In this document: positions 2,466 to 58,260 of the stretch, piece by piece
Numbering within the stretch: position 1 is the stretch's first letter
Layout: the number at the start of each line of letters is the position of its first letter
NCBI GenBank assembly: GCA_021234155.1
Contig: JAJEKV010000020.1
Span: 14,815,268-14,879,267 of the forward strand
Length of the DNA stretch: 64,000 nt
Source: Isoetes taiwanensis
Lineage: Eukaryota; Streptophyta; Lycopodiopsida; Isoetales; Isoetaceae
Direction of reading: 5' to 3'
Made by a program: the position numbers and the translations under genes
Notes under the pieces: generated by a model
What the model was told of the DNA's origin: nothing
Database searches by the model: none
Seen by the model: only the letters and a program-made list of their open reading frames with translations

Positions 2466-3256
2466 TTTTATTATGAATAATATGCATTTAACCATATGTT
2501 ACAATACAAACTTGTCAACATATTTCATGTTTTTGAAAGTATTATATCTCATGAGATAGGTCAGCAGGCACACTTGAAGGCTTAACTTTGGCATATACAA
2601 TTGCTACGTGGTTTATTTAAAATAAGAATTTGAAAGATATCTTTGAAAAAATCTGAAAAGACGGTGTTTATTTGACTTGTTACACTTGTTCTTAGATATG
2701 AAAATGTGGCTGTTGGATATTCTTAATGATTTGACGATTTTAGGGATATGAGGCATTTTGGCTTAAAACACTAAGTTTTCAATGCACGCTGCTCAAACAA
2801 AGGTATTTTATGACCATGGTTTTCCATTAGATGGATGATGTATACAACTAGTAAAGGTCGAAAACATTTTGAGGGATGATGCCTAAAGTCAAGGTAAGAA
2901 TTAGTTATGAAGTTTAGTGCACATTTAATGGCTCTAGGAAGCGTAAAGCAATCGCTAAGATATGGAACGAACATGGTTAAAAAAGTTCCAAGGCATCTTT
3001 TGATTGCAATCGACTTTTGTTAGATGGTGGTAATGTGAAATTGCTTATATCAAAATGAAATGACCATATTGTCGAACAAATTGATAAGGCAAAGAAATAA
3101 CAAGGTTTTTAGACGAATTTGTCTTAACTATTTTATTTTAGGGTTTCGACCATGGCATTTGATGGGCAAGGAATTATGATATTGTATAATCGACGTGAGA
3201 GAACTCCAGACATCCGCACGATCGGAAAAGGTGAAACATAACCCGAATACCATGCC

Positions 3257-3340
3257 TATATATAATCGCTTTCTAACCCTAAAGTAGCGTAAATAGATCG
3301 TGAAAGGCAGCGTAATGCGATCTATATATAAAAAACCCTA
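3257..3340 (+). promoter_or_regulatory. duplicated TATA plus telo-box promoter-like segment
   Basis: A TATATATAA stretch at about 3258 is followed by AACCCTAAA at about 3275. The same pairing recurs 60 bases on: TATATATAA at 3323-3331, then AAACCCTA at 3333-3340. Telo-boxes close to a TATA box are known from plant promoters of translation genes. No downstream ORF beginning with a convincing coding sequence was found, so this may be a relic or a chance arrangement. Confidence 0.3.
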
Positions 3341-5402
3341 GAAATAGGGATATAGCATTTCGTTTTTGTCTGCCGGTTCAATCCGCCCACTTCATTTCTC
3401 GGTCGTGTTTCTGCTTTGTTTTGGTTTAGCATAACATGAAAGAGAGGAGATCCGGAATGTGGCAACCAAATTGGTGGCAAAGATATGCATGCACCTTGCA
3501 TTACACCGTGTCATTTTCATAGAAAATTGCTATAGACTCGATTGGAATCGTTGAGCAATCTGAAGTGCTATCTAGGAAGGCACAAGGAGATGCTGAAAAT
3601 TCAAATCTATGGAGAACCAAGGAAAAAAGGCAAATAAATATTCTCTTACCAAAATGGATGGTGATGTTTGCACAAGAATCGACAAATATAATTCAAGCGA
3701 ATGCAAATGGAAAATCCAAAGACAAGCAAATCAGGGTTGGAAGCATTTTGAATACATTTGGTCTGTTGATCTAGCTTGCTTAGATTTACTAGTTCATAAT
3801 GTTTATGAATGCAATAGCTTAAGTATCAAGCACAAATCTAGTTAAAATGCTTTGGAATATATGATTTCATAAGGATTGCATCCGGATACTTTCACATGCG
3901 CAATGTTTTCCAAACTAAATGGAAGATCTAGTGGCATTAGCATGTTTGGCCTATTAGCAGCCTCTCGGATGGGTAGTAACAGAGAAATGATAGAATTATT
4001 TTGTTAAGAAAAATGATGATCCGTAAGAGTTGACCCATGACAAACTAATTTGAACTGTATATTTCCATCTTGATAGCTAATAGCTCATTTGACCATTGAT
4101 CTTCAAGTAGAAAATATAAAGGACAAGATACTGATATTAAATGGAAGACATAGATTAATAACAAGGTAAATTTAAAAGAAATTTTGAGCATATAGAGGTG
4201 ATCAACATGATGGCCTCTTTGGCCAAACAAGCTTATTAAAACTAGGCACGCGATCAGCATGAGTCTTTGTGCAACAGAATATTATGCACACTATTTTTGG
4301 CATGTTTGAATCCATGCACCTCGGGTTTTCAAGAGATATGTGATTCTTTACGGTGTTTGCATGAGATTCTCGCCATTGGGCCGGTGGATTTGACATCTAG
4401 TGTTTTTTACATCTTTTCGCCTTACAATCGTAGACATGAGAATAGGAAAAATCCATGCAGCTTAACATATTTCTAATCATGGAAAATGAATTGGATATAT
4501 TTAATTTTCTTTGATATTTAATGGCATTACACCGATTGCATTGCCTCGAATAGGTCATAGGGCAATGCTTTGTTACTTTGCTTTGCCAAGTTAGATTAGC
4601 TCCAGTTCCAAAAAATGTCCGCAATGTGTGCATTGATTTGCACATTCCTAACTTTTTGTTCAAACAAGATCCTTATGCTAATAGCGGTTTGCCCGATAGC
4701 AACGTTTTTTTTTACGCATGCTTAGCCATGTGATCACTATATGATCTTTTCTTAGCATTTAGCTCGTGTTTATTCAAGTTTGATCTACCCGCTTGTTTCC
4801 AATATTGTAGGCGGTTTTGACATTCTCGCCCTTGATCTGTAAGAATAGTTGACATTCTCGCCCTTGATCTTGATCCAGAAGAATAGCTTAGACCGTTACA
4901 TGTTCATGCATGGTACCGGCTCTACATAGTTTTTTCAGTTAGTCGCTTGAGGTAGGTTTTGTGCTTTATACTCACCGCCGATATGGTGGAGTTGTATATA
5001 TCGATTCTTACGCCCTTACATCCAATTTGGCCCGCACCATAGAATGTTCCGATATGATTTCTAAAGGAAGTAAATGAATAATAAAAGTAGTTGGACATGG
5101 TATTTGCCTTTATGAAACGTAACAAGTTTTCGTGGACGGGTTTGGTAAGCATTTGGCCGATGCTAGGGTTGTACTGTAACCGCAATTGCTTTCTATTTGT
5201 TTATTAGAATATGCAAGGTGAAGGGCTTAAGAGCCCAAGAGATCCGTAAGCTTACCCGATGGCTCATGTTGTTACCCTTTCCAAGGCTAACATTCATCCG
5301 GTTTCATTGCGTGTTACGGGGTTTCTTGCTCTATGTGTGTTTTCCATTTATTCAAGTTGGAAAAGCTACAAGACAAGACAAGATGACATCGAAGATACAT
5401 TT

Positions 5403-5570
5403 TTGACAAATTTGTTTGAGCTCTATGGTGCTGATTTGGAAGACAAGGAAAAATTAAACTCTATGTTTGTCGGATATTCTAATCCCAGCCTAGAAAAGCA
5501 GCTTTTTAGACTTCAAAAAGTATTTAACATTGGTAATATAAAGATTTTTGGAGAACTTTTTGGATTATGA
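5403..5570 (+). pseudogene. short coding relic, possibly MIF4G-like
   Basis: This is an open frame of 55 codons at the end of the second tandem copy. The last residues read GNIKIFGELFGL, which resembles the GNI+FIGELFKL core motif of MIF4G domains (eIF4G family). After a one-base shift the following residues read IMNEIMF, where eIF4G has IMH/IM-E. The equivalent region of the first copy (about 1615-1720) is frame-broken. The match rests on one short motif, so the identity is weak. It could equally be non-coding sequence open by chance. No start codon or splice sites were identified with confidence. Confidence 0.2.
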
Positions 5571-5776
5571 ATGAAATTATGTTTATAAGCTCTAGAGAAC
5601 GGGGAACTTCTTGTAGATTGTAGAATATGGTAATTGCTTTTGCCTTGATAAATGCTAACCATTTTAAGGCTTAAGTCAAATGTACACCTGATTTGGCTTA
5701 AGGCTGCATATTGACCGGAAGTGGTCTTTGCAAAAGTCCATGAAAGGTAAAAGTCTGTTTTAACAGGTTTAAAGGG

Positions 5777-7275
5777 TTTTTTTTTTTTTTTTTTTTTTGA
5801 GAGAGAATGGGGTTTTTTTTTTTTCATTAATTATAGAAAAAGGTACATTGATGTGAGTGAGCCATGTAATTGACTACTCAACATTAAGCATATAAACAAA
5901 ATAGAGAAAATAGCCATAAATAATTGCTGTGCTAAACAAATAGCGGAAGTGTTTGAAAATATGAAGTCCTTGACTTCCTTATGGGGGTTATGAAACCTGC
6001 AGTGCTGCTACTGAATTAAACCAGTGGAGAACCAAAATTGAGCAACAATGATGTAAATCAGAGGCGCAATATGTAGACAAAAACACAGCAACTCCCCGAG
6101 ACAAAACCTCAGAACTCCCCGATAGTGCTCTTTTTGGATTCAGAATGAGAGGATGAAGTGTTGTAAATAGGATCATGAGGATGGGATGGCAAGATTGAAG
6201 TTCAGGAATTAGGATTTGGTAGGATATTGGATAGAAAATGATATGAATGAAGGTAGTCAAGTTTTGGCCGGTAATCACGGTTCTGCAGAATGAGAGTGTT
6301 ACCATTTCCCCCAGTTTAGCTCTTGAATTAGTCATTCGATTGGTTGTGGACATCAGAATGATGAGTGTACCATAAGCATCTGCCAAACATCTGTGATGGT
6401 AATATCATTGTCTGTAGTATTCAAATTGTTGGTCTGTCATCCTTCTGCTATTGATTTCTAGGAACCACCATAATTGCACCATTATGTGCCTCTGCAAAAC
6501 TCTATTGCCCAATCAATTTCCTGATCAGGGATGTCAGGAATGTCAATGTTTGTGATGCCTCGACTAGGCACCCGCCCATAATCCATCATCCGTATAATCA
6601 ATATCATGGAATAACCTCTTTTACGAAAAGTGTATGCTCACCGGCTCAACCATGTATTAAAATCTCTGCTAGGGTTCGTCATATAATCTTGCAGGAAGAG
6701 AATCATTGTCAGTAAGAGTAGCATTGCAGTTTAATTTAAACAAATTATGAAAGCCTATGTAATGACCAATACTATGCTACTTGTTATCCACAGAATCTCT
6801 ATCTACATGCATCTGATTAGTTGCAGCCATTTCAATGTCGTATATAACTTGTGTTTTTATCCAGTGAATAGATATTCTTTTTCCCCTATAATGACATCTA
6901 TTTCTATGTTTCCATACATTCCATAAAGCAATGAAGCATAAAGAGTTTGTGAAAGCATCATCATTCATCATGAAATCCAATAGAGTAGCAGGGCATAAAA
7001 TTTTGAAGGTATCTTCAAACCATAACCAGAAGGAGGTGAGCTTGACACACCCAAAGATATGCTCAAAAGTTTCCTCATTACCACAATCAAGAGGACAATT
7101 TGAATCAATAGGATGAGTAAGATGACTTGAGTGCCTAGAAATCATTTCCAAATTAGATAAACTCTTGTTTGCAATAAGCCAAACAAAGTAGGAGATCTTT
7201 GGGGGCAGATAGGAATGCCAAATGTTTGTGAAGAGTCTGGTTTCAGTTTCATCCGAGAAACCCCAATACAATCAA
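5777..7275 (-). mobile_element. 5'-truncated L1-type LINE, minus strand
   Basis: Poly-T runs at 5777-5798 and about 5814-5823 are the reverse complement of a poly-A tail and mark the 3' end. Upstream on the minus strand lie an RNase H-like remnant and a zf-RVT (reverse-transcriptase zinc-binding) ORF, the order expected at the 3' end of plant LINE ORF2. Similarity stops near 7275, so the copy is 5' truncated, as is usual for LINEs. It inserted into, and truncated, the second copy of the 3.79-kb tandem unit. I did not find a clear target-site duplication. Confidence 0.7.
6777..7271 (-). pseudogene. LINE ORF2 C-terminal zf-RVT domain
   Basis: This is a 164-codon open frame. Its N-terminal part has the zf-RVT pattern: W-x(5)-LPPKISYFVWL at about residues 18-32, then NCPLDCGNEETFEHIFGC at about 58-75 with the spaced Cys-Cys-His-Cys ligands, then SFW. 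In plant LINEs this domain follows the reverse transcriptase and precedes RNase H. The reverse transcriptase itself is missing because of 5' truncation. The downstream frame at 6386-5988 contains STTNRMTNSRAKL, which resembles the TTN-x-x-AEL core of RNase H with the usual Glu replaced by Lys. Both pieces are inactive. Confidence 0.8.
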
Positions 7276-9855: not shown

Positions 9856-12849
9856 TTACATTATGGTGTTGCATTACAACTTGAAAACTCTAAAGGTTAC
9901 ATTATGGTATTGGAGTTTGGTTGAAGCACACCTTAAAAAATCTAAAATATAACTATTACAATAGGTTTGGAGGGATCCATAAAACCCCCAGTTAGATCTT
10001 TTTTGTGCCAAAGAATACTAACTTATTGTACTAAAATATGAAATACATTTGAAATAAGAGGGCCGAGGGGAATGGCCCCGCCTGTTTTGTTTGGGTGCAA
10101 TGTTGGCCAAATTTTTGGCACCCGGCCAATATGACAAAAAAAAAAAAACACATTAAAGGTTGGGGAAGGAGGGAGAAGATCAATGGTCCAGATTCACTTG
10201 TGCTTGTGATTAGGATCCAAGGGCTCAGATCAAATTGTGTTAGTTGTTAAGCAAAAATAGTTGTTAAGCAAAAAAAAAAACAAATTTGGTTAAGGAGAAG
10301 TAGAAGACGAAAAACAAAGGATTGATGAGATGTCAAAAAGAAGTGCCAAGATCATGACAAATGGATGGTCGAGATTTGTGGAAACAAAATATAAATATCT
10401 TGTCTTCTCCTCTTTGGCTCTAGGACCTTCCATGAAGAAAGGGTAGTGGCAAACCATGGGAAAAAAAATTGAGAAACTTCTTTCCTCATGGCTCTAACTG
10501 AAGCTCTGCATGCCCCTCCAAGAATCTTTTATGTTTGCCCATATGTCTCAATGTGGTCGAAATATAGACCCTTGACTATAAGGAAAAGTCTTCGCCAAAA
10601 ACATATTGGCGCATCCTTTTTCCATACATCTATGACCTCTTTGCCATCATAGCTTTGTGCCTGCCTCATTTTGCACTAAAGGCTCAATCATTGTCATAGC
10701 CATATATTGCAAATAGACTTGCAAAAGCTCCCATTTTCATGCTTACATCATTCAACAAAGCATCTAAAGAGTTGATCTTCTTATCTGGTGGTCCAATTAC
10801 TTGATACTCCAAGAGTGATTGCTAACCTAGTATTAAGAACTAGATCAGAATGGAGCTAACTAGTTCTCTACTCACCATACTCACCATAATCAACATGTGT
10901 CATATGTATGTATAATGCATAACTTATGTCACATGTATTGTGCCACAAGATTCCATATGTCACATGTGTCATGCCATGAATGTATAGCATAAACATATGT
11001 GACATATGTATGTCACACATATATGGCATAAGATATGTGACATATGTATGTCACGTGTGCTACATTATGAGTCAATGGTGTCACACTTGTCATGTTTAGA
11101 ATTATGGCATAGCAAATATGCTATACATATGCCATAAATCATTCACATATCATAACACGTGACATATGATATAAGACTTATAGTTTATATCTGACATATG
11201 ATATAAAGGTTATAATTTACATCTGCATATCTAATGAAATTTGGAAATTAATCATTAACACAACTATTGACTAGATTTTACAAAATTAGTCAATCTAGTT
11301 ATAAAAGATAAGGAGAATCGCATAATTTTGTATGGTCAAAGGTTAAGGGGGCTCAATTATAAAGTCTAAATGTCGTAAAGGTCTAAGGCATCAAAAATAT
11401 TAAATGTCAAGATCTAGTTATTAAGCTTTAAAGGCTTATATTTTGAAGATTAAAGCGGTTATAATAAAGAAAAGATTGATGATATGGCCTAATGAAGGGT
11501 GGAGATTGTCATTGAATTAAAGATCGAGATATATTGTAGAAAAATACAAATATTTTGAAGAGAGAATCTCTCTTACTCTCTTCATATGATATGATTTAAG
11601 TTTAATGTCAAGTATAGAGCTCAGGGAGAGGTCCACAAGAATAAGTGATGAGGCTAAATCATGGGGAGCTAGAGATTAAAGGCCTAGAATATCTAAGATC
11701 ATAATAATTGGCAAAGAGAAAGAAAGACAATGCCATGCTTATATTTTAAAACCATATATAGAATTGAATTTCCTTAGAAAAATAGTTTTATTGTGCTGAC
11801 AGTTCGTCTGGAGAGGGTAGGTGGCTAGAAGGTCTTCTTGTAACTCTTTATTGTTCGAGGCATGGTTTTCAGAAAGTAAATGAAAAAATAACAAGCAACA
11901 GATGACGTGGAGCCGAGAAAAGCTTAGATTGCAGCTAGTTCAGCTCACCAGGTGTCAAAATATAGCTCCAATATGTGATAGAACATTTTTTGGTTTGAGT
12001 ATTAATTGGCCAAATCCTTTGAACTCTATGCATTTTTTTAACCCTTTCCTTTTGCCTTTCATATGTATATGAGGATTGCTCTAATGAACATCTACAATTA
12101 AATTGAGAAGCTTATCAGAAAGTTCGTCTAGGATAGTAGACATCTAATGAACTGGAATTACAAAAAATAAGAAAAGTGGTGGGTTTGCTTGCAAATTTTT
12201 TTCGCAAGCATGTGCTCTGGGTGGTAAATATATTTGGATCTTCTTTCATTACTTATTGCTTGAGTAAAAGTCATGTGCTAGGCACGATTGGGCAACGGGG
12301 TAGAGAGGTTAAGTTCCAACTGAGTTGGCATTGTATCGTCCAACATGGCAAGTAGGCGGATGTGCTCCCGCCCCAAAAAAAAGAACATTTTGAAAAAGAG
12401 GCGACAGCTTCTCCACAAATCGGAACTTGCAGGTATCAAATTCCAATGAGAAGAACTGCTACCATACTACATTCATGTGCTCCATCGTCTTGTAATGATT
12501 TGGGTCTATTAAAAAAATGTAAGGAAAAAAAATGTCTCTTACGACAGAAAACAAAACTAGAAACTAGATACGCTAAATCCTCATGTGAAAATCTAAGAAC
12601 TTACATATGACTTAAACTAGTTAAGACTTAAATTGAGGTTTGTTTGGATGATGTGATGTGATAGTTATGTTTTATACTTATCTTGCAAGCTTTCAAGCAT
12701 GTGGCGTACTTGCGCCTTCCCCCTTTCTAGGTTACTTTTGCTTCTTGCTAAATAAAGCTCCTCCAAATTGCACGATGGTGGCCCTACTACTAAGTTACAT
12801 AAGGTAAAAAAAACATGTCATTTTCAATGATTGTCCTTGTCAATGTAGT
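9854..12849. other. 3-kb gene-free AT-rich region
   Basis: No convincing coding frame is present. Small features: a 17-base direct repeat AAAGGTTACATTATGGT-like at about 9851 and 9892; a palindromic stretch at 10096-10127 (GGGTGC to GGCACCC); and the degenerate palindromic region listed separately. At about 12290-12370 there is a GC-richer segment that ends in an A run and looks SINE-like, but it lacks a clear Pol III B box. Confidence 0.4.
10880..11215. repeat. degenerate palindromic ACATATGTGACATA-type repeats
   Basis: Overlapping short units such as CATATGTGACATATGTATG and TGTCACATGTATTGTGCC recur about ten times, many of them self-complementary (CATATG, ACATGT, TATGTGACATA). This is cryptic simple sequence capable of cruciforms; no element ends were seen. 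Confidence 0.6.
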
Positions 12850-23599: not shown

Positions 23600-24959
23600 T
23601 CACAAAATAAAAAAGAAGATTCTTGGAAAAGGTCCTATGCACAAAACATCAACATGAAATGAAGTGGTGTTCTATTAATGAGACTGAAATAATAAGTACA
23701 ATGACTCATAGGAATACAACAATAAACCCCAAATGAGTGAAACTAGAATCAAATGCCCTGGAACTAGATAATCCTTGAGGTCCAATAAATGGAGTATGCA
23801 ACAAGTAATCTCACAAGGAATGAGGATCCGAAGAACATTGGCGAAGGTAAAACCGTCCCGGGTCAGAAACTTATCGTCAGGATAAAAAAACCCCCGCCCT
23901 TTCAGGTTTTTGAGGAAAATCCTAACGATAAATAACCGACTCAAAGAGCAGTTACCGATGAAAAAGTTGTTGAAGGTGTATCCACACTCATGATAGTCCA
24001 CGAAGAGTGTCAACCCCAATCAAAGTGTTAAGAGTTATAAGCAATTGGCCATTACGAAGTGCCGACTTGAAGAAAAAAGCCCAAATGGAAGATCTATGAA
24101 AGACAGAATAAGATTTCAATGGCAAGCACAAAGTTGAAAAAGAAGATTGAGGAAATTAGAACATCAAAAGGAAAAAACGTCCAACAAGAAGCTCGGAACC
24201 TACAATGCTACGTCGAGAAGAGAGACTTTGGAAGTTAAAAAGACTCCAGAAGCCATAAAGCTACACCAAGAAGAAAACATAGGCACATCCAATAGAAGAG
24301 CCCCTTGGAGCCTACCCAGAAGCGACAAGTGCTATGCCGGGAGGGGGACCGGGAGCGGGAGCGGGAGCGGGAGGGGGAGGGGGGGGAAGGGGGGAGGGAG
24401 ACAAGAAGCATGACCAATGGGAAAAATTCAAAAGGATAACCAGAGAACCCCAAATGTGCTACTCGGAAGTCACAATGCTACACCGAGAAAGAATACAAGA
24501 GATGACGAACCAAACCACAATTCACGCCCCAACCTATCATGACAACAACCATCAGAACAAAGAGGATTGAGCAATCACATATACATAGATCCTCCCTATG
24601 CAAGCAACATTGACCAAAACACAAATAACCACTCAACGACCTCAAGAGAGAAAAGGGCGGGAGGGGAGGGAAGCTGATACCAAGAAACAAAGATCCAACT
24701 CAAAGAGAATGCCGATGAGAACTGAAAGAGAGGACATGGTATATATAGAGAAGAAAGGATCCAAGTGAGGCCTGAGCCAAAAAATATTTCCCTTTCCCAA
24801 GAATGATGGTCCTATTCATGCTAAATACAACCATTGCATTCTTGGAAAAGCCTATGCACAAAACATCAACATCCGACAGAAGAGGAACAATCTCAAACTC
24901 AACAAAGACCGAAGGTATGAGGGACTATAAGGTATAGAAGGGATAACCGGACTACCCTA
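23600..24959. repeat. A-rich dispersed repeat segment with GGGAGC simple repeats
   Basis: TTCTTGGAAAAG followed by CCTATGCACAAAACATCAACAT occurs at about 23619 and again at about 24839. The part 24700-24840 (AGAGAATGCCGATGAGAACT through TAAATA-AACCATTGCATT) recurs at 53683-53820. A G-rich (GGGAGC)n tract lies at 24343-24403. Strong purine bias on the plus strand makes long hydrophobic minus-strand frames that are artefacts. Class unknown; possibly LTR-element non-coding sequence. Confidence 0.6.
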
Positions 24960-26902
24960 AGAACCGAGATAAAAGGATAAAGAATAAAGTAGAAGAAGTG
25001 GAGCCAATGAGGAACATGGATTTAAGGAGATATGATAAAGACAACCAAACAAGAAATGGATGCCAACCATGAAAAAATGAAGAAACAGCATGAGGCCAAT
25101 GAACCAGTGCAAACAGAGTGCAATCAAAACTAACGCAACAAAATGGATCAGACGGACTACAAAGCAATGAGGAATCAACCAAAATAACAGATATGAGCAA
25201 TGGAACTGAAGAAGCAGAAGAACCACGTAGGTAAAAGGAAAACCTGATGACAAACATAGGCTAAACAATAGAAGGCCATAACACTAGGGTAAGGACACAG
25301 AAAGATATCTCAAGAAGGAGCTAATGATGATAAGTTTAAAAAGTGATGTTTCAGCAAAGGACAAGGGACACAAGATGACTCCCCATAGCCTAAATATAAT
25401 TGAAAACGTGAAATCCGATGAATAGAACCCACCAAACTGATGAGACAAAGGAATACTAGGGATCAATAAGATACAAGAACCGAGCGATGTGCCAAGAATT
25501 AAACAATAACATAGAAAATGATCCTAAGAAAGCAAAGTGATGAAAATAGACTCTAATGAATCGGGCAACTTGGATAAAGACAATTATAAGGATAAGAAAT
25601 CATGAACGTCTGACTCGCAAGGCTAATAGAACAAGTAAAACCGAAGGTCAAGAAGATTAACAATGAAATTATGAACAAGAAAAAATAAAACAACAAAGCC
25701 AAATAAGAATAATGAGACTAGAAGTATAAATTCAAAACAAATGAACCCAATCAACTAGCCATAGAATAGCCATGGAGAAATCGAAGCAAGATGACACAAA
25801 TATAATTAAAGGCAATAGAAACCGGTAGATAGACATGGAAGGGCGAGAGGGACAAATTTGACAATTGGAATAAACATCAACTGAAAGACTCTAATAATAG
25901 AAAATACAGATGGTCAACCTTCGAGGAATAAGGGGGACATAACATGAACTATGGAAGCAAATAGAGTACAAACAGGAGTGCAGGAGTCCATAAGAACAAT
26001 CAGGACCATTGGAATAAGAACGAATATTAGGCATACACTAAAGAGGCTTGCAGAACTGTACACGGTTAATGAAGCAATCTAAGACAACTAGAACTAAAGG
26101 AAGTGAAAAAATAGAAAAATGAGTAAGGGCAATGGAACCTTGAGATCGAAGAAATGAAGAGGCCCATTGATGATAAGGACCTGAAGTAATGGCTCTTCAA
26201 AAAACAAGGTAGAAGGCGTCTACGGAACCAAAGAGACCATCAACCATGGAACAGGCAGAGCAAAAAGAGCAAATCGGATAAAGGCAATAGAAATTTTGCC
26301 AGAAATAGAAGGGCGAGAGGAACAAATTCGATCAATCGAAATACATGAACAAAGTGCAACTGAGAAGACAATGATTCCATGAAGAAATAGGTCAGTAGGG
26401 TCAACTTGGATGAACAAAATTGGCGAAAACAAGAATTATCGAAGCAAGTGGAGCACAAGTAGGACTACAATAACCATAGGAGAAAACAGGACAAATGGAA
26501 CAAGTACGACACTAGGGCAAACACTAAAAAGACATACAAACTACGAGACAATTGAGCAATAAAGGACAACCAGAACTAAAGGACGTGACGGGCGACCCGG
26601 GGAGAAGAAAACGAATGAGGTTAAACGAGATACAACATTGATGGAAAAAGATACAAACTGACAAAGTATGCAAACCTTAGGGATCAACCCGATCCAAGGT
26701 CTAAGTAGAATGAAGGGGATCAGAGATAACATAGTAAATGAGACTAATGAAGCGGAGGGATGGAGCAAAGAGATTGCGATGAAAGGGATAACATGAACCA
26801 CAAGGCCCAAACATCATGAAAGCAAGACTAACAATGACCAATAGAACACCTTAACACAAAGGCCAAAAGAGGAGCAATTGATCATGAGTAAGGACAAAAT
26901 GA
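24960..26902. repeat. A-rich degenerate tandem array, left part
   Basis: Units of about 470 bp can be followed by recurrent landmarks. GGCAATAGAAA...GAAGGGCGAGAG-GACAAATT occurs at about 25809 and 26282. ACAACTAGAACTAAAGGA-GTGA occurs at about 26085 and 26568. GAAGCAA-TGGAG-ACAA-AGGA occurs at about 25950 and 26440. The same landmarks reappear at 34790-34975 after the transposon, so the array was split by it. The array is strongly purine-biased with no coding content. Confidence 0.65.
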
Positions 26903-26970
26903 GGGTGTAAAATCGCTAGTGGGGTACAACTTTTGGCGAAGCATTTAAGCACTTTAAGTGCTGAAACTCG
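26903..26970 (+). repeat. left terminal inverted repeat and subterminal repeat
   Basis: Terminal 21 bases at 26903-26923, then the subterminal AAGTGCTGAAACTCG at 26956-26970. Between them TTTAAGCACTTTAAGTGCT forms its own small palindrome. Confidence 0.75.
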
Positions 26971-27589
26971 CGGACGTCGAAGCCCGTCACGCCCTTCTCC
27001 CACCTTTTCCCTCGGGCGAAAACTCGTGATGTTTTTCATTTGCTGATGATGGAGGCATGGAGCTTGGATGATTTCCACAAAAGATCGAGGTCCAGGTAAT
27101 TCGGGGTGAAGCCCCGGGAGGAAGAAACTTGGTTGGAAAATAATGTCACCTGGATCGAGATTGGGATTCGCTTTGGACAAAGAAGTTGAAGAAGGGAAAG
27201 ATAAAATGGCACTGCAAAAGGAGCATCTTCGAGAAGTTGGAAACACTCTGTAGAAAAATCTACAAGAATTGTCACAACAAAGAGGTAAGAAATCAACTGC
27301 CCTTGCTTTTATGCTTGAAAATTGCACTAGATCAATAGTTGCACCCGAGGAACACAAAGTAAATGGCCGCATTTGTCGGTGGTAATGCCAAAGATACCAC
27401 AACAATAGACAAGTAAAAAACAGAGGCGTATGTTGTAGCACATGTTAGGAATCTGAAATGAAGGCAAAGCCAAAGGTGGCAAATTGGATCAAATGAGATC
27501 GGTCGCATGTGATGAAAACATAAAAACCTTAGAGAATGCAAAGACATGAGATTGGAAAATCAGTTTTACTTATCACAAAGAACTGGAAG

Positions 27590-27925
27590 CAAAGAGAAAG
27601 TGAGTTGAAAGGCAATGAGAAGGCCTCCGAATTACGTAAAATGATGTTGGAAGAGGTCGAGAACAGTTTAAGACAAAGCCACAAATGATTTGGCTACAAA
27701 ACAGAGGAGTTCAAGCTTAATCCAAACCGTGAGTTGGAGGCGTAAATTAAAGATTTGGAGCAGACTGTCCCGATGGAAACTTGGCACAGGAACAAGGTAC
27801 AAAAAAGCAATGAACCCTACATCCGTTAATGAGCAGTGTCAAATGTAAACTCAAACTTGAGGAGGAGTTAAAAGTTCTCAAGAAGAACAGAGACTTCGCA
27901 ATTCTACATAAACAATTTGTGGAAG
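27590..27925 (+). pseudogene. coiled-coil coding remnant inside the transposon
   Basis: Plus-strand frames here read ESELKGNEKASELRKMMLEE, then after stops NRELEA and IKDLEQTV, and finally LKLEEELKVLKKNRDFAILH. Heptad-like Leu with Glu/Lys indicates a coiled coil. Several stop codons interrupt it. It lies upstream of, and in the same direction as, the phosphatase-like remnant, so both may derive from one gene. No specific family can be named. Confidence 0.4.
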
Positions 27926-28994
27926 CTTAAAATGGATACTCCTGCAACATTTAGCATCTCTACTATTATACGAGATAAGTTGTTAGTGGAAGATCCATTT
28001 TATACATGTTCAAAGATGTGGTCTAGAATTCATTAAAGCTTACAGTTAAGTTTAGCAATCGAATTGCCAACATGAGTATCATATAGCTTGTTGTTCATTG
28101 TTGAGAGGAGGACAATGTATTCATGGTTGCCCCGAAAGGTGCCGAGGGTGTATTTGACGAGCTAGGTTTTGGCCATGTTGCGGGTGCTTCAAATAGTACA
28201 CCAAAAAGGATGTGTTAATCCGTCCCGCAATTGAGGTCTCACCCTTCGTGGTTCAAAGAAGGACAATGGTGCCATTTGAAGATGCACAACACCACCTGAA
28301 AAGTCCCTATAGGAGTACAGATGCAACAAAGCCAGAACCACCACCACCAGGTCAAGAAGTCATCCCAAGAAGCTATAGAGGAAGTCAGAACACAAAGACC
28401 GGGTTGTAAACACAAAGACCGCGCCAGGGAAAAACAATGCAATCCGATTGTACACACCAAGCACCTAAGGAAGTTGAGGGAGTAATTCCATCGGATGAGG
28501 GCAACTTGGGTGAATATTTGTCAAAAGGAAAAGGCGTAAGAACAAAGAGGGGTAAGTTGGAGGATAGCAAAGAAGTTGTTCAAAGCTACAAGAAAGAGAA
28601 CAAGAAGTAGCTATGCAAAAAGATGCAGGAAGCGGCCTCAATCATGACACCACACCTATCGGCGTGTGTTCGAAGAAAATGCGGGATCGGAGCCCTCAAG
28701 TTTCGTGAGCCCGATCTTCAACAAGTGATTGCTGCCCTTAATAACCCCGAGGGTCGGTGTGGGCATTCTTTGGGCAAGCCCGTAAATAGTGTTGCTTAAA
28801 ACATTGAATATTATTGATTTTCTTTTGTTGCATTCACTTTGTGGGATTACCAGTTGATTCTCGTTAGGTCGAGAATCCTCGCATTGATACGAAAGGTTTC
28901 CACATTCAACCCATTTTTCATTTTCATCTTCATCTATTTATTCATGTAGTAATTCTGTTGTGTAGGTATTCGGGATGTTCCAACGTACTAAATA

Positions 28995-29714
28995 TTGATT
29001 TGGCAAAAAAAAGATAAACTCATTGTCTTGGATTTAAATGGTGTGTTGATAAATACATTTGGTGCAAATGAACACATACGCTTGGAAGCAGGATTGACAA
29101 TGACATACACTAGTAGAAAGAAAGTGATATTCGGACGGGATGGTGTTCTTCTTGAAGACTTTGTTCTGAAGTGTTGTGTGTTGGTATATGGTCATCAATG
29201 CAACTCTCTAATGTGGAAGATGTCTTTTACCAAGTACTATGTCCGTGTTTGAGGGACGGATTTCAATTTGTATGGGGACAGGGAAAAATGTGTGCGCAGA
29301 CCGCCACCACCCTAACAAACACCGGCATCCAACATGATGAAGCCACTTGGGAAAATATATGAGTCATACCCAAGATTCAAAGGTAAGACTTTGCTTCGTG
29401 ATGATTCATTGTACAAGACTTACCTTAGCAGTCCCTGGAAATTTTTGTGGGTACCTGCATTCAAGATGGATGTCTATGATGAAGTGCTAACAGTACTCAC
29501 CCCAAAGATAGAAGAAATACTGCAGGCCAAGACTGAGGAAAAAATGAAGTTACTGGTGAAGAACACACACAGATACAAGGCCTGGCCTAAGACAGATAGA
29601 AAGATTATGAAGCTATGCTTGGAAAGACTTTCTGGAAAACAATTGCAGTTCTGCAGGTTTGTGAAGGAGGAATTGGAGAAGGTTTATGGTGATGAAGATT
29701 GTCATTCTCCATGA
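28995..29714 (+). pseudogene. FCP1/NIF-type (HAD) phosphatase-like fragment carried by the transposon
   Basis: Three successive plus-strand frames together give an NLI-interacting-factor/FCP1 homology domain. Frame one (28995) has KLIVLDLNGVLI, the HAD nucleophile motif in the D-x-N-G form common in plant members. Frame two (29171) has VGIWSSMQLSNVEDVFYQVL and FVWGQGKMCAQTATTLTNTG. Frame three (29334) has KPLGKIYESYPRFKGKTLL then RDDSLYKTYL, corresponding to the final HAD motif (DDSPYK in the family), plus a Lys-rich tail ending at 29714. Frameshifts fall near 29175 and between 29290 and 29334. Family members remove phosphate from proteins such as the RNA polymerase II C-terminal domain. This copy is broken unless introns explain the shifts. 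Confidence 0.75.
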
Positions 29715-30355
29715 TTATTGGCCTCATTGTCATTTATTTAGGCCAAGGAATCCTACACTTTTCATGTACCATCTTTATCTTAATTTAAGAATGTTTTTGC
29801 TATATTGTTTATGTTTTTGCTATATTGTTTAAAAAAAAACCCCCCAAGTGCTAGTCTGGTATGAGTCTTTATGGCAGATACTGCTTATTGTCATGTAGTG
29901 ACAGTTACTAAGTATGTAGTTGTTTAACACTAGCAGAAGTGTTAATGTCATCAAATGCTTACTGTCATGTAGTTAAGGTGCAGTGCTTACTGTTAAGCTA
30001 TATAACTGTTCACACCTAGCTGTTTATTGCATAAGTGCCCGTGTGTTCCAGTGCTTACTCACAAGCACTGCTGAAACTAATTAAAATGCTTAGTGTTTGA
30101 AACTAATTAAAGAGCTAGAGCACTGTTACATTCAAGCAGAATCTGAATGGACTGTACAAGAATTCAAACTACAAGAATGGACTGATAGACAAAAATAACA
30201 TTTGATAGAGAAACAAAAAACTTTGATAGACAGAAAAATCTTTGATAGAGACAAAAAAACTTTTTATAGAAACAAGATTTTTTACAAAAAAAAGGCCCTC
30301 AGGCCAGTGTCTTCAGGATATAAACAAAATTTTTTACAAAAAAATTGGCCCGCGG

Positions 30356-30452
30356 GCCAGTGTCTTCTTCAGGGTGTCTTCAGGGTGTCTTCTTCAGGAG
30401 GGTGTCTTCTTGAGGGGGTGTCTTCAGGGGGTGTCTTCTTCAGGGGGTGTCT
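30356..30452 (+). repeat. GTGTCTTCTTCAGGG minisatellite
   Basis: About six imperfect 12-18 bp units (GTGTCTTCTTCAGGG, GTGTCTTCAGGG, GTGTCTTCTTGAGGGG) in a row. It lies in non-coding sequence between the phosphatase and acidic ORFs. The adjoining 29715-30355 interval shows no gene, apart from short repeats of TTGCTATATTGTTTA and GATAGA. Confidence 0.75.
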
Positions 30453-30599
30453 GCTGGAGGCAAGAACAATTAAAAAAAAAAAAAACGCCGGAGGCAAGCT
30501 AAAAGCCCTTCATTCTCCATCTGCAACACCAATAACAAAAAATTGATTAAACAAATGAAAATGAAAAATTGATTAAAGAAAACAAATGAAACATGCATA

Positions 30600-31011
30600 C
30601 CATTTATGAGCGCCACGAAGTTTGCATAGTCGGCCGATTCGTCTTCAATTTCTGCTTCTTCTTCTTCTTCTTCTTCTTCTTCTTCTTCTTCTTCTTCATC
30701 GACTTCTTCATCAGACTCGTCTTCTTCTTCTGATTCCCCTATCCACCCTTGCAGAACTGCAGTGACATATTCCTACGAAGATATTTCCGATTCCTCATTT
30801 TCTGATTCCTCATAGGAATCAGAAGAATCGGAATCGGAATCGGAATCCGATGGTTCAGAAAATTGAGAGGCAGTAGAGTGGGCAGGAGAGGAGGCAGCAA
30901 AGGAGGCAAGTACTTGAGGCAAAGGTGGGAAGAGTGGAGGGAACACCTCTTCGCCGCTAGTAAGCGCCTCTTGGAGGTGACCTCCCGCCCTCGCCACGCG
31001 GCTCGCTTCAT
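30600..31011 (-). pseudogene. acidic Ser/Asp/Glu-rich ORF in the transposon
   Basis: From ATG at 30997 (minus) the frame reads EALTSGEEVFPPLFPPLPQV, then a Ser-Asp repeat (PSDSDSDSDSSDSYEESENE) and a TAG at about 30773. It continues in the same frame as EYVTAVLQGWIGESEEEDES, then about 16 consecutive Glu encoded by (TTC)n at 30655-30698, then AEIEDESADYANFVALING. One stop codon, possibly CAG to TAG, separates two halves of an otherwise continuous acidic protein. Upstream (31020-31200) is GC-rich, repetitive GGGCGGATTGG/AGGCGC sequence that may be its promoter or 5' UTR. Function unknown; acidic proteins accompany some transposases. Confidence 0.5.
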
Positions 31012-31533
31012 CCTGGAATGGGCGGATTGAGCCGGATTGGGCGTAAATTGGGAAGGAGTGCGGCCGGATTGGGAAGGAGTCGAGGAATTGGGCGGGGAAT
31101 GGGCGGAGCGTGAGCTTGTGAGAAGAGCTTATGCTTAGGCGCCTAGTGCTTAAATCCTCTGCTTAGGCGCGTCAGTGTACGAAAAACCTCACACGCGCCA
31201 GAACAATTAATTCGTAACCAGGCTTAAATATTTCGTATGACCAGTCGAATTGACACATGTCACATCGAGGAAATGCCTTGACAATATAATTTTGCCAATA
31301 ATGTTGGGATAGTGATGGTATCAAAATAAATAATTGAATCTTATTCCAATGTCACAAATCTACATTCCTAAACAACAATTCAACCTTCATTTCGAAGTAC
31401 GTGTCCATGCACACCACCCTTGTGCATCCTCACTATTATTAATATATATACAAATGTGTGCTTACGTGCTTAGGTCTTTGGAACAACAAATCACTTGAAA
31501 AGAATAACATCAATTTGGTTAAGTGTCAAAGAA

Positions 31534-34256
31534 TTACAATGTTATTGGGAGATCGCCATAATTTTTTTCATGGCTCTCCCCCGGAAATTTTGTACATGTC
31601 TCCAGGCCTTCTATTTTGTCCATATCAATTTTAGGATATCTTACCACATGGTCGGTGTGCCGCGAGGCTTCGGGTTGTTTAGTGAGCAACATGTACTTGA
31701 AATTACCCAAGAATTGATAATACAATCCACTTAAGATAACCTCATGCACTCCAAATTTTTGCCCCCATCCATCTTTGTATGAATCTTCAAGTGTGCATTT
31801 GGGTTCTGTGCACTTGAGGATGTAGAAGTCCACACCCTCTGAATTGTCTACCTCAGCATTCACTGCAAAATTGTCACCTACCTCTACCAAATTACTGATC
31901 CATTCATTGGCTTGTTCAAGAGTCTCCTTTTTCTTCTCAACTCCTGGTTTTAAGTCAGTTACCTCCCACTTTCCAAATCTACCTGTATTGATGCAGGAGT
32001 CCCAATTATGATCCATGCAAAACAAGCAGAAACATGACAGGCATCTATGAGCAAGCCTGTTTGGTCTACTCCTGCTGACAGGTCTGATACAGTGAATCTT
32101 CTTTGTGCCTTTAAGTGTTTCAATTTTATATTCTTCCATATTTGCCACAACAAAGAAGTTCAATTTCCCAAAAATATCTTTTGATCTCATCTGTTTCATC
32201 AAGTGGTAGATCAATGAAATATGTACCGCGAAAATTTTACAATATCTTTAGCATGCCTCGGTTGCACACCATTGGGTTTGAGTTGTTCCTTACTTAGCGA
32301 CCTTTTGATAACAAAGATTCTGCACCATCATGTTCATCTTTACCATGAGCAAAGGGCAAAGTAGTTCCACACTATTTCCTTGTCATTCATTGTGAAGGAC
32401 ACGCCTAAGAAAAAAAAAAAAGGTTTTCCCCGACTTGAATTGTGATGAGCGACCATCACTCCAAACCCAATGCTTCTCATACTCTATTTCCTGTTCCTTA
32501 AGCCATGCAACATGCTTTTTGTAGGCGTGTTCCACAAATAATGAGTCATGCACTTTATCATCGAAATGTAAAAGTGAGTCTCTTTTATGATCTTCCTACC
32601 ATTGTTGAGTCTATTCCCCGACCGCTCCAATCTTACGTTCTTTTTTTTTCTTCTTTGGACCGGTCTTCTTAAATGCGCCGCGAGGAACAGGAATATCAAG
32701 ACTTTTGTCATGTCTATATGTTATGTGAACAAGTATAGAAACTTGTCCGTATGCGGTTGCATTGACCGGGGCTCATTCTCGGATCTTGATGCTGTAATTT
32801 TTACGCAAAGTCAATAACAGATACAATTATATCTTCCTCGAAATGATGACACACACTATTTAAACTGCCTGCCAATGTGCTATGTAATTGTGTGGAACAA
32901 AATCTGATATTACCTTCTTCACATCCTCTTGAAACTCTTTGGGACTTCTCTCCTTCTGTACTAATCTCAAGACAGGTTTGTACCTCGAGCCTTTCTTGGA
33001 TCCCCTGAATTCTCTGTCTGGTCCACAGGTTGCTTTTCAAATGTCTTCCAAGTAACAGTACTGAACCCGTGCCATCCATTTCCTGTGGACATTTTCTAAT
33101 TCTATCCAACCCACATTTTTTACACGCCAACATCAAATAGTTATGATCAAACCACTCCTCATCATCACTTGTCTCCATAAATCACTGGTGCACTTGATTG
33201 TATGCTTCTTGGCTGCACATTCTGGGCCAGGGCCACAAATCTCCAAAGGGCGGTTGCAATTGTCATGAACTCCACCCGATTTTCTCAGGCTGTTCAATCC
33301 CTGCATGATGTATTCAAATTTCAAGTGGTAGATGCAACAACATGTATGCCTCTCATGCATCCTCCTTACAAAACTCGGTTTCAACCTCTCAAAAGTCTGC
33401 AATGCAATTTTGATACGAGGATTCTCCTCTCTAAACTGAGGGTAGAATTGCAATCTAGGGGAAATCGTGTGAATGCCAAATAAATGCTACATATAATGAA
33501 CCCTACAATATAGGATGAATACTTACTTGGTGACTTCAAGAAGGTGAATTGGATGTTCCATCTTTATTCCCCGCCTCGATACATACCTCCTCGTGTCTTT
33601 CTTGTATGGAGAAACTCTTGTATTTTCTCACATCCCGAACTTGATAACGACTTCTCTATTGTAATCTAACATGCTATCCATCCGCTTCCTCCTCCTGAAC
33701 ATTGACTAATGTCCTTCCCCTTTGTTAGCTTGCACCCTTCTTTGAAAAGCATTTGAAATTGTTTTTTTTGGGATCTTTGAGCAATCGCCCACTGTTTGAT
33801 TCAATGGCTTGACACCATTTGTACTGCTTTGCCATTATCGGGGTGGACTTCCTTGCACCTGAAGCATGTCATGATTCCTCTCATACTTATGTTCTTGCAT
33901 TGTTTCCTTCAAATTCTTCACCATTTGCTCGGCCATAGTAACCTTTGCTTAGATTTCTTTATAGAAGCAATTGGTAAATCCCTTGCCCTCCAAAGAAGAC
34001 CGGTCAAGGATCGGCCTTTGTCATTGTCATCAACATTTGTACTAATTTGGTTGAATACTTCATAAATTTCTCCTGAAATTTCTCTTATTCTGCGGTCACT
34101 CAGTCTCAATTTCTTATTCTTCTTTGAAGGCGAATCTTTAGAAGGGGAATTCTTCTTCATTGCTACCTTCTTTGCATACAATCTCTGCCTCTGATCTCTC
34201 TTCCTTGCTGCATCAATGACTCTATAAACTGAACAGGGAGAGGAATTGGGTTTCAT
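31534..34256 (-). pseudogene. transposase-like gene of the 7.68-kb element, frame-broken
   Basis: Conserved blocks follow in order on the minus strand. A basic N-terminus at 34256-33918 contains LRLSDRRIREISGEIYEVF. At 33453-33133 lies FVRRMHERHTCCCIYHLKFE, a Cys/His cluster. Next come CKKCGLDRIRKCPQEM and VSVIDFA (about 32805). About 32483-32425 reads HWVWSDGRSSQFKS, and about 32350-32317 reads HGKDEHDGAE. A long C-terminal frame (32214-31534) has CLSCFCLFCMDHNWDSC and VDFYILKCTEP. The blocks match an uncharacterised transposon protein type I know from plants and, distantly, animals (SDG...Q-K and HGKG..DG). The Asp residues of IDFA, WSDG and HDG are plausible catalytic residues (inference). 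Several frameshifts and stops make it inactive. Confidence 0.7.
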
Positions 34257-34514
34257 CTATCCCAGATTTCTGTGTATTGCAAAATTGGCGAGGGCAAATT
34301 GTTGAATTTCGGTTCAGGCAATTCTTGGAAACAATTAGTCTCTCCATTTTGCTTGAATTCAAGATGGGTTAGCCCGCCATCCACGAATATGGCGGGCTAC
34401 ACGCATTCATGTTTCCGGCACCAAACAAGCTCGTGATTCTCTCAGCCTGTCATTTGACGGGCGCGCACCCTACATGTCAATTGATCAATCACGCACGGCG
34501 TGTTTAAAACACGC

Positions 34515-34581
34515 CGATTTTAAGCACTTGTAAGCGGCGTTCGGACGGTGATTTCTGCTACCCAGTACCGATTTTGCACCC
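34515..34581 (-). repeat. right terminal inverted repeat and subterminal repeat
   Basis: Read on the minus strand, 34581-34561 gives GGGTGCAAAATCGGTACTGG as the terminus and 34529-34515 gives AAGTGCTTAAAATCG. Just inside is the palindrome GGCGTGTTTAAAACACGCC (about 34499-34517). All lie within 90 bases of the end. Confidence 0.75.
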
Positions 34582-35010
34582 ATGAAACAATAGAGCCAAA
34601 GACGAGCTAATGAGACTAAAAGAACAAAACCATAACAAATGGGCAAGCAGAACAGACTATCAAATTAACAGAAAGGAAATGTGAAGAAGGTAGAAGGTAG
34701 AAGATAGTCATAGGAATTTTAAGAACTCCTCAAAAGCAAGATGGAACATGTCCAAAGAACTAAAGAAACCAACCAACTATGGGACAAATCAGAATAGAGG
34801 CAATAGAGAAGGGATACCACGAAGACAAAGGGCAAAAGGGTAGGTAAACACTTAAAGGTGGCATATGCAAGGACTACAGAAGCGGGTGAAGCACAAGCAA
34901 GACTGCAAGGATCCATACGAAGAAAAAATGGAGCAATAATAGACAACTAAAACTAAAGTACATAATGTGTGACACAGAGAGAAGAAACAAACAAGGTGCT
35001 GCACACGGAG
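34582..35010. repeat. A-rich degenerate tandem array, right part
   Basis: The array resumes directly after the transposon with ATGAAACAATAGAGCC. The landmarks GAATAGAGGCAATAGA (about 34791) and ACAACTAAAACTAAAGTA (about 34943) match units at 25809/26282 and 26085/26568. Confidence 0.6.
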
Positions 35011-55689: not shown

Positions 55690-58260
55690 TACTAATCTTG
55701 TTAGCTTATACTTCCTCACAATCATTAGCAATCTGCAGAATCACGAGTTTGGCAAAACATTGGAAAACTTTCAATCTTTCCTTTCTCTTCCACCAGATCA
55801 ATGATATTCTTGTTCACACTTTTAACAGGATTGTCGTCTTTTGTGTTGAATTCCTTTCAGATCAAGTAATTGCTTCGCGTATAAATTGTACGGGTTACCT
55901 TAGAATTCATATCTTTACCAGAATCTTGCTGGTTATGCAGAGGTTCTATGTGCATGCTCATTTCGTATTAAATCTAATGCCCTGCCTTAAAAATAATAAT
56001 TGCTGCTCATTTTCAATATGGAAACATGGAGTCCTCCCTTGAGCTCTTTGAACAAATGTAGAAAGAAGACACCATGGCAAACTGGCAAACTCTATGAACA
56101 AATGGAGCAAGAAGGCATCATGGCAAAATTGTTTAGACTGTTAATAGGATTGTCGTCTTTTACACCAACATTAGTTGCATTTTTAGTCAGATGAAATAAG
56201 ATAACTTATCTAATTGATATTTGAGCCATCGTATCGTAAATATCTAAGTGGTGAATGCAGTATGTTTAGAAACAATAATAGTTAGTGAACAAATGCAAAG
56301 AGAAGGTGTGGAACCCAACACCGTTGTGCTTCTAGGCGTTCTAGATGTTTATAGAAATGCAAAAGATTTATAAAGAGCCAAATGGCTGCAACATGTACTG
56401 CTTTTAAACCAAGTATTTGCTGCATTTATAGATTGTACGGATCACCTTGGATTTCACGTCCTTAGTGCCAGTCAAATATGGAATCTTGCTAGTTATGCAA
56501 AGGTTCTGCGGACACGTCCATTGGTAATAAATCTAATGCACTGCCTTAGAAATGTATTTGCATGGAATCCAATAATTGCTGCTCATGGTCGTAAAGGAAA
56601 TAGGAAGTCCTCCCTTGAGCTCTTTGAACAAATGCAACAAGAAGACACTATGGCAACTGTTTGAATAAATAGAGCAAGAAGGCACCATGGCAAACAAATT
56701 CTCATTTAATATCTTGCTTGCTCCATTCATTTCTACTTATACCCTGATATGGAGCCAGAAGATATTCTGATAATGGATTAGAAACTCACTTACTTTTGGG
56801 ACTCTACTACTTGAAATGTATGCAACATCTGCAAACTTGTTGGACTCCATGATTATAGCACATGTGAAGAATAGAATCAGCTATAAGACGCTGCTACTTC
56901 TTGAGCAAATATATAGAGAAAGTATCAAACCCAATACTATACACTTCTAGGCATTCTAGGTTCAGAGAATCCATTGCAATATTTAAATTAGACTTACTGA
57001 GACGACCCCTTTTTTTTTTTTAAAGGATCAAAGCCAAAAAGTTTATTAATCAGATAAAAAGTACAAAATTTACATGTCTCATCTAACTATGTAAGCACAA
57101 AAGATGCCACAGGAGCCTGAAGCACAATGTACTTACTCTAGAATAGAAGACTAATAGTTTGGTTAGCTTATATTTCCTCACAATCATTAGCAATCTGCAG
57201 AATTACTAGCTTGGCAAAACATTGCAAAACTTCCAATCTTTCCTTTCTCTTCCACCAGATCAATGATATTCTTGTTCAAACTTTTAACAGGATTGTCGTC
57301 TTTTACACCAATATGAGTTGCATTTTTAGTCAGATTGAATAAGATAACTTACCAATTCATGTTTGAGCCATCATATCGTAAACATCTAAGTGGTGAATGC
57401 AGTACATTCACAAAACACAATATTGAACAAATGCAAGTTGTGGAACCCAACATCGATGCACTTCTAGGCATTCTAGATGTTTATAGAAACGTAAAAGATT
57501 TATAGAGAGCTGCAACATATACTGCTATATCTTTCTTTTCCACTGTCATAGGACTGTGTTGAATTGCTTTTAGACCCAGTAATTGCTTCGCTTATGAATT
57601 GTATGGATTATCTTGGAATTCACGTCTTTAACGAAACCTTGCTAATTATGAAGAGGTTCCGTGGACACAAAATCTTGCTAATTATGCAGAGATTCTATGG
57701 ATATATTTGGTATTAAATCTAATGCCTTGCCCTAGAAAAGTATTTGCATAGAATTCAATAATTGATGCTCATTTTCGACATGGAAACAGGGAGTTCTCCC
57801 TTGAGCTCTTTGAACAAATGCAGCAAGAAGGCACCATGGCAAGCTCTTTGAACAAATGGAGCAAGAAGGCATCATGGCAAAATTGTTCAAACTATTAATA
57901 GGATTGTCATATTTTACACTAACATTAGTTGAATTTTTAGTCAGAAGCAATAAGATAACTTACCTAATTGATGTTTGAGCCATCGTATCATAAACATCTA
58001 AGTGGTGAATGCAGTACGTTTACAAACAACATAGCGAACAATTGCAAAGAGAAGGTATGGAATGAACTCAACGCCATTGTGCTTCTAGGCATTCTAAATG
58101 CTTATAAAAATGCAAAAGATTTGTGAAGAGCCAAATGGCTGCAACATGTATTGCTACATCTTTCTTTTTCAGTGTCATAGGAATGTGTTGAATTGCTTTT
58201 GAACCACGTAATTGCTTCACTTATAGATTGTACGGATCACCTTGGATTTCACAGTCCTGC
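55690..58260 (+). pseudogene. reiterated PPR-protein pseudogene fragments
   Basis: At least four degenerate copies of one PPR-coding segment lie head to tail (about 55690, 56210, 57160, 57960). Shared blocks are CTCACAATCATTAGCAATCT...CCACCAGATCAATGATATTC, GGATTGTCGTCTTTTACACC and GAGCCATCGTATCGTAAA, followed by coding pieces. The best copy (56287-56664) reads EQMQREGVEPNTVVLLGVLD and later CLRNVFAWNPIIAAHGRKGN then RKSSLELFEQMQQE, a typical PLS-type PPR repeat (organelle RNA processing factors). All copies carry stops and shifts. Confidence 0.75.
57010..57132 (-). mobile_element. LINE/retroposon 3' end with poly-A tail (copy 2)
   Basis: Reverse complement of the segment at 9707-9853: poly-T (57010-57021), then AGCCAAAAAGTTTATTAATC and on to GTAC at 57132. 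Inserted in the PPR pseudogene cluster, splitting copies b and c. 5'-truncated to about 120 bp. Confidence 0.75.

Follow-up and report, generated by a model that had tools for sequence, protein, structure and literature searches.

A multi-copy DNA transposon of Isoetes taiwanensis, probably Sola2-like, with a candidate DDD transposase and a second gene of RING-like and NIF domains

The window analysed here is a stretch of 64,000 nucleotides from contig JAJEKV010000020.1 of Isoetes taiwanensis (assembly GCA_021234155.1). Near its middle lies a 7,679-bp DNA transposon, called family 1 below, which interrupts an A-rich repeat. The element holds two genes in convergent order: on the minus strand a gene for a putative transposase, and on the plus strand a gene, or pair of genes, for a RING-like finger and an NLI interacting factor-like (NIF) phosphatase domain. 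Both are broken in the window and were read with the help of other genomic copies. The element, its ends and its insertion site are as follows.

26903..34581: transposon of family 1, 7,679 bp, with terminal inverted repeats and a target-site duplication; 61 matching genome pieces, including full-length copies
26899..26902: left target duplication ATGA, identical to the right one
34582..34585: right target duplication ATGA, identical to the left one
26903..26923, plus strand: left terminal inverted repeat, 18 of 21 positions matching the right one
34561..34581, minus strand: right terminal inverted repeat, 18 of 21 positions matching the left one
26956..26970, plus strand: left arm of a subterminal inverted repeat, 13 of 15 positions matching
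34515..34529, minus strand: right arm of the subterminal inverted repeat, 13 of 15 positions matching
25433..25743 (about), plus strand: intact paralogous repeat serving as an empty site, through which the joined flanks align straight

The original prediction described a large DNA transposon bounded at 26903 and 34581, with terminal inverted repeats (TIRs) matching at 18/21, subterminal inverted repeats matching at 13/15, an ATGA target-site duplication (TSD) and an interrupted array, and each of these features was recovered. None of 300,000 random 21-mer pairs drawn from the window reached 18 matches, and the subterminal pair is, the TIRs apart, the sole pair with at least 13 matches when the outermost 200 bp at either end are compared. 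When the flanks were joined with one ATGA they matched the repeat at about 25433–25743 (65% over 318 columns, E 7e-28), and because they align straight through this intact repeat the insertion point is exact. The host array is old and divergent, its repeats being offset by 474 or 1221 bp, for example, and it goes unreported by Tandem Repeats Finder.

Searches of the genome (1,658,258,908 bases in 1,110 contigs), with reversed-pattern controls for all end-pattern counts, gave 319 matches to the left-end pattern, a few of them variants of the right end, and 252 exact matches to the right-end pattern; neither control gave any. The other copies stop at the same bases as the window element, as the original prediction demanded. 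Among the 97 left ends listed from contigs C6 to C954, 47 have a right-end partner at most 25 kb away; the elements so delimited measure 7,456–7,899 bp in 29 cases, less in five and more in 13; in this sample, then, paired ends mostly mark near-full-length elements. Twenty-two family-1 loci were fetched (L001–L022), and both ends could be recognised in 13 copies. Eleven of these have an exact 4-bp duplication and the other two one with a single mismatch, where the chance identity of four bases is 0.0051; exact identity of the flanks at lengths 2, 3 and 5–9 occurs in 0–2 of the 13, and at 5–9 in none. A count by eye of the eleven exact duplications gave 34 A or T among 44 letters. The apparent presence of different left halves in L018–L022 was rejected, the left part being simply missing within the fetched stretches. 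The region 26903–34581 is confirmed as a genuine multi-copy DNA transposon, and its mobility is borne out by copies with 4-bp duplications.

The right half of the element carries the transposase gene, for which comparison of 18 copies gives two minus-strand exons and about 880 amino acids (aa) in total, with limits set by eye.

33527..34256, minus strand: transposase exon 1, about 243 aa to the donor, with a helix-turn-helix-like stretch; frame broken in the window copy, a 250-aa open frame in L011, L014 and L020; GTAAGT donor; limits by eye
33455..33526, minus strand: transposase intron, GTAAGT...AG, from comparison of copies by eye; predicted from DNA alone
31534..33454, minus strand: transposase exon 2, about 635–640 aa, with a Cys-rich part, putative DDD core and C-terminal domain; frameshifts in the window copy; conserved in the copies, L023 and L069, the core also in L057
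33325-33342, minus strand: protein block CCCIYH, read from the window frames
32804-32818, minus strand: protein block VIDFA, read from the window frames
32434-32463, minus strand: protein block WSDG...QFK, read from the window frames
32324-32347, minus strand: protein block HGK..HDG, read from the window frames
32810..32812, minus strand: candidate catalytic Asp 1 (VIDFA), conserved in L023, L057 and L069
32455..32457, minus strand: candidate catalytic Asp 2 (WSDG), conserved in L023, L057 and L069
32327..32329, minus strand: candidate catalytic Asp 3 (HGKxxHDG), conserved in L023, L057 and L069

The four protein blocks named in the original prediction lie on the minus strand and are split between two frames, and the three blocks with Asp would form the catalytic core. 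The blocks D-F-x-E-N, S-D-G-x-S-S-Q-F-K and H-G-K-G-x-x-D-G, together with an S-D-D block, are common to L023, L057 and L069. Over the main core piece the family-1 transposase is 52% identical to that of L023, a divergent relative in the same genome in which the intron position is apparently kept, and 47% identical to that of L069. The core query, L004, was chosen for its long open frame and lacks six residues around the first Asp. The original prediction allowed that the protein might prove to belong to an unrelated, non-transposase family; Pfam and NCBIfam gave no credible family and sequences of the PDB no credible match. A hit of the core to an NCBIfam macrolide phosphotransferase model (E 1.9e-4) was judged a chance match, at 20.8 bits against a cut-off of 615.

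The search for distant relatives gave a single clear case. Among bacterial and archaeal genome contigs 37 loci matched the DNA pattern, of which one, L057, is a relative; with tblastn, none of the remaining 36 matched the transposase pieces at an E-value below 0.1. On viral contigs neither protein search nor DNA pattern gave a relative, and the five pattern loci found there do not read as such. L057 is JAAEPJ010000558.1, a 4-kb contig labelled as the bacterial metagenome-assembled genome (MAG) Cli_8, with an open, 690-aa transposase-like protein; motifs like GGTGTYGGACRTACA recur on the contig, which may have GGGCAATTCCAT ends, and our guess is that it is eukaryotic contamination of the MAG. 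Its protein matches the family-1 transposase by tblastn (E 2e-16, 23% over 389 columns) and by profile (probability 98.8, 30% over 290 columns), and Pfam matched no family to it. The resemblance covers the core with the blocks DFxEN, SDGxSSQFK and HGKGxxDG and a candidate terminal repeat starting GGG; unlike family 1, the 4-kb contig gave no RING or NIF match, and by eye there is no 4-bp duplication beside the candidate ends. AlphaFold models of L057, whole and core alone, had mean pLDDT (predicted local distance difference test) scores of 36 and 39, too poor for use; the order of strands and helices in the core model is RNase H-like, but the blocks lie below 60, so this is no evidence.

The left half of the element, in which the original prediction saw no gene, is occupied by the plus-strand gene.

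26958..28740, plus strand: second gene, 5' part, with an N-terminal conserved region, coiled coil and RING-like finger (about 28000-28150); broken in the window, open in L016 and L066; limits approximate
28992..29714, plus strand: second gene, 3' part, with a NIF (FCP1-like) HAD phosphatase domain, motif I LDLNGV at 29028-29045; broken in the window; PF03031 in the open copy L006

The 5' frame is open over 593 aa in L016 and 619 aa in L066, and includes the coiled coil and a C-x2-C ... C-x-H-x2-H-x2-C pattern; the NIF frame then follows, and we found no convincing splice choice that joins the two parts, which may be one gene or two. The NIF domain (PF03031) scores well above the Pfam cut-off of 21.8 bits both in L006 (E 2.1e-13, 50.7 bits) and in L069 (E 3.8e-21, 75.9 bits), while the broken frames of the window itself give no NIF match in Pfam. 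For the finger, RING models are the best matches in L069 (zf-RING_2, E 5.6e-4, 20.6 bits, below the cut-off of 27.3), and the Cys/His pattern of a RING is present despite model scores below cut-off. At least 74 scored candidate places in the genome match the RING part and at least 149 the NIF part.

L069, reached via the genome search for PF03031, represents a second family (family 2). It is 7,384 bp long, has TIRs matching at 16/18 and starting GGG, lies between ATCA and ATCA, and carries the same two genes in the same convergent order. Compared with family 1, its minus-strand transposase is 44–48% identical in the core pieces, 28 and 42% in those of exon 1, and 39 and 56% in the C-terminal ones; on the plus strand, in the same order, the N-terminal region is 33%, the RING finger 48% and the NIF domain 34% identical, so that the second gene can be aligned over most of its length. 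Because family 2 shares the gene pair and its convergent order with family 1, at 28–56% protein identity, the two genes have probably been inherited together since before the families split. The family-2 transposase has at least 150 scored places in the genome, many without stops. Of at least 101 weaker NIF matches, 14, including L069 itself, have one of these transposase matches within 4 kb, and all 14 pairs are convergent, none otherwise arranged, 12 of them with 1.68–1.93 kb between match starts.

Family 2 has also left short, end-only derivatives. Its end pattern has 895 genome matches and none in the control, and 18 inverted pairs less than 1 kb apart were spotted among the 100 places listed. 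All 18 show exact 4-bp duplications, none has exact identity at lengths 5–8, 56 of the 72 TSD letters are A or T (by-eye count), and they represent 17 independent insertions. The derivatives measure 190–251 or 903–935 bp and have about 35–57 bp at each end in common with the 7.4-kb element, plus one match of 18 bp; because they keep little beyond the ends, ends of this length seem to be enough for mobilisation in trans. Two of them, L081 and L082 (G000:C222:136800-137050 and 145305-145545), have the same flanks in opposite orientation and are one insertion copied, by a later inverted duplication of the host segment around it.

Target duplications narrow the choice of superfamily. The elements hAT, P, MuDR, Merlin and Zisupton make TSDs of 8–11 bp, and piggyBac and Sola3 target TTAA, as does Kolobok (PMC9587614). 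Exact duplications of 5–9 bp were absent from the 13 family-1 copies and those of 5–8 bp from the 18 derivatives, which rules out the first group, and TTAA occurs in none of the 31 duplications examined, which rules out the second. The 4-bp duplication found in family 1 and in the derivatives of family 2 is that of Sola, whose transposase is reportedly of the DDD type, a finding ascribed to Bao et al. 2009; such duplications, together with a putative DDD-type transposase outside Pfam, suggest the Sola superfamily and a Sola2-like element. The passages on Sola2 in PMC3627910 give a transposase of 888 aa, TIRs of 12–21 bp and AT-rich 4-bp TSDs, and family 1, with its TIR of 18/21 and the A+T counts above, has the same features. 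The Sola2 elements of Dictyostelium fasciculatum (DFa) and Polysphondylium (PPa) described there are alike in AT-rich 4-bp TSDs, short imperfect TIRs, a transposase of about 890 aa and a length of several kb, and some carry a second protein, Fanzor1, in the other half, where the present element has RING-NIF instead (PMC3627910). The host here, by contrast, is a plant, and the likeness to the elements of PMC3627910 is one of description, not of protein homology.

We consider it likely, though well short of certain, that family 1 is a cut-and-paste transposon of the Sola kind, most likely Sola2-like, with a DDD transposase and a co-inherited accessory RING-NIF protein. The transposase would bind the outer 20–50 bp or so of the ends through its N-terminal helix-turn-helix-like region, excise the element and insert it at a staggered cut of 4 bp in AT-rich DNA. 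The gene on the plus strand would specify an accessory protein with an N-terminal domain, coiled coil, RING-like finger and NIF-type HAD domain, the last with Asn for the second catalytic Asp, and this protein would have accompanied the transposase from a time before families 1 and 2 diverged. It would most likely act as a ubiquitin ligase of the RING type, with the NIF module as the part that recognises a phosphorylated protein of the host, and could in this way aid the element in transcription or in countering host silencing. Few DNA transposons are known to retain an additional gene besides the transposase for long, and in plants some of these genes act against host methylation. It is possible, if still rather doubtful, that the RING-NIF protein is a true second component of this kind, a phosphatase fold turned binding module and kept across families at roughly half identity or less, with NIF relatives in other repeats; it might, for example, be an anti-silencing ubiquitin ligase aimed at phosphorylated RNA polymerase II or a silencing factor.

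Several observations weigh against parts of the favoured reading. The name Sola was reached from the 4-bp TSD, the TIRs, the protein size and background facts, compared by description, and the same transposon might belong to an as yet unnamed DDD superfamily with target duplications of the same length; a transposase without a credible family in Pfam or NCBIfam, and a distant homologue (L057) likewise without a Pfam family, would fit such an origin, which we nevertheless think unlikely given that the size of about 880 aa, the AT-rich 4-bp TSDs and the short TIRs agree with Sola2 as described in PMC3627910. The RING model in family 1 scores 12.3 bits (E 0.14; cut-off 27.4), below a chance-like match to Dit_N (0.028), and 87 among the 101 weaker NIF matches listed are not near a listed family-2 transposase. 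The two genes are, besides, not always paired: in the fetched stretch of L023/L072 (G000:C919:1429000-1442500) neither a TIR-TSD pair nor a second gene was recognised. The transposase relative at this locus has extra intron-like gaps and few stops in its coding stretches, and is perhaps immobile or domesticated.

There is, moreover, the question of whether the second gene does anything for the element, since it could be a captured host gene carried without function. NIF domains are common in this genome, and the family-1 copies show no clear in-frame constraint: ratios of nonsynonymous to synonymous change (dN/dS), pooled against L066, were 0.67 in the own frame of the RING part against 0.68 and 0.67 in the wrong frames (17 copies), and 0.60 against 0.64 and 0.72 for NIF (16 copies), the own frame not being clearly below the others, so that these values are uninformative. 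Constraint on the second gene is suggested only by the protein comparison between families. In both families, however, the gene is the same, with unchanged domains, order and orientation and a protein identity of 33–48% by piece, the convergent layout is seen at another 13 places apart from L069, and a neutral passenger would hardly remain recognisable and open over such a distance; idle carriage thus seems improbable, and an accessory protein inherited with the transposase remains the preferred reading.

The catalytic motif of NIF phosphatases is DxD, while motif I is D-x-N (LDLNGV) in families 1 and 2, and also in the NIF of L068, the second catalytic Asp having become Asn; a domain with this motif would be expected to show little or no phosphatase activity. 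Nineteen further NIF matches that were fetched divide into 11 with D-x-D and eight with D-x-N; by eye, L107 and L108 of the latter resemble family 2, L103 and L106 resemble L068, and L101, L104, L105 and L109 are nearest to family 1. D-x-N NIF genes occur among ordinary plant genes, and because of this the change may predate capture of the gene. The C-terminal domain is otherwise that of the NLI interacting factor-like phosphatases (PF03031), with UBLCP1 as the nearest solved chain (E 0.0014), and the Lys of motif III and the DD of motif IV are present. It differs from those phosphatases in the D-x-N motif, in the RING-like finger and coiled coil beside or fused to it, and in being transposon-borne. 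The mudrB of MuDR and VANC of VANDAL are likewise second, non-transposase proteins kept by plant DNA transposons, but there both the transposase and the accessory protein look unrelated to the present ones. What is new is the RING-NIF gene common to two diverged families. A limited literature search found no link between NLI interacting factor and a transposon or transposase, and one for Sola2, plants and a captured phosphatase found nothing relevant beyond PMC3627910, both of which are weak evidence of novelty. With a putative DDD-type transposase and RING-NIF in two diverged, multi-copy families, and with some copies whose second gene is open, the role of the protein is directly testable, and the element offers a test case for the effect of a transposon accessory protein on a plant host.

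The original prediction was right as far as it went, and besides the second gene it missed the likely reason why the window copy looks broken. Across the left 2,900 bp, 96 of 120 7-mers centred on CAG or CTG in L066 are changed in the window element (80%), against 31–54% for the five motifs used as controls; the same test on the clean copy L013 gives 17% at CAG/CTG and 16–25% for the controls. Per base, and again compared with L066, the window element has 0.147 substitutions within two bases of CWG and 0.035 outside, and 0.097 against 0.025 indels. This fourfold excess of both contrasts with controls that are near flat for substitutions (GAC/GTC 0.079 against 0.065; TCA/TGA 0.058 against 0.070) and show about a twofold excess for indels (0.085 against 0.040 and 0.071 against 0.035, respectively). 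Of 17 copies, 11 have a substitution excess of more than twofold, and L013 has none. From clean copies to the element the density of CAG/CTG falls from 41.4 to 16.9 per kb and that of CpG rises from 9.7 to 24.8 per kb, and over the transposase side of the 18 copies the two densities tend to move oppositely. The published assembly of this species (1658.30 Mb in 204 scaffolds plus 909 contigs) was made, according to PMC8566536, with Guppy 3.1, racon and pilon from R9.4.1 nanopore reads. The simplest cause of the damage at CAG/CTG would be that methylated CHG sites were miscalled, and much of the frame damage in the window copy is probably an assembly artefact. True decay of the copy is the alternative, for neither L066 nor any other copy is the same locus as the window element, old copies do decay, and the window element differs from L066 away from CAG/CTG as well (3.5% substitutions, and the 31–54% of control 7-mers). 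Its chances appear low, however, in view of the concentration of changes at CAG/CTG and around CWG beyond the controls, and of the altered sites, which often gain CpG and do not show the C-to-T change expected of decaying methylated DNA. Damage of this kind warns that methylated transposons in nanopore-based plant assemblies may look falsely dead.

Some further features were noted along the way. Within the window, bins 1–6000, 10001–12000 and 24001–26000 have a low ratio of CAG/CTG to GAC/GTC (0.40–0.85), and in the 2-kb bins at 36–50 kb it is 1.6–2.3. Elsewhere in the genome, the NIF domain of L068 (G000:C1027:14499000-14507500, at 3382-4308 on the minus strand) adjoins several unknown open frames, none of which matched this transposase, and similar NIF domains lie on C179 (L103) and C941 (L106); L068 is possibly another type of repeat that carries NIF. 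The D-x-N group of L101, L104, L105 and L109 (on C1051, C935, C1086 and C1007), the third such group, could represent a further, third family of this transposon. An open frame of 4,572 aa at C964 was discarded as a run of N. Finally, the window has tandem repeats at 56623-56693 and 57804-57880, which read like coding sequence of pentatricopeptide-repeat proteins.

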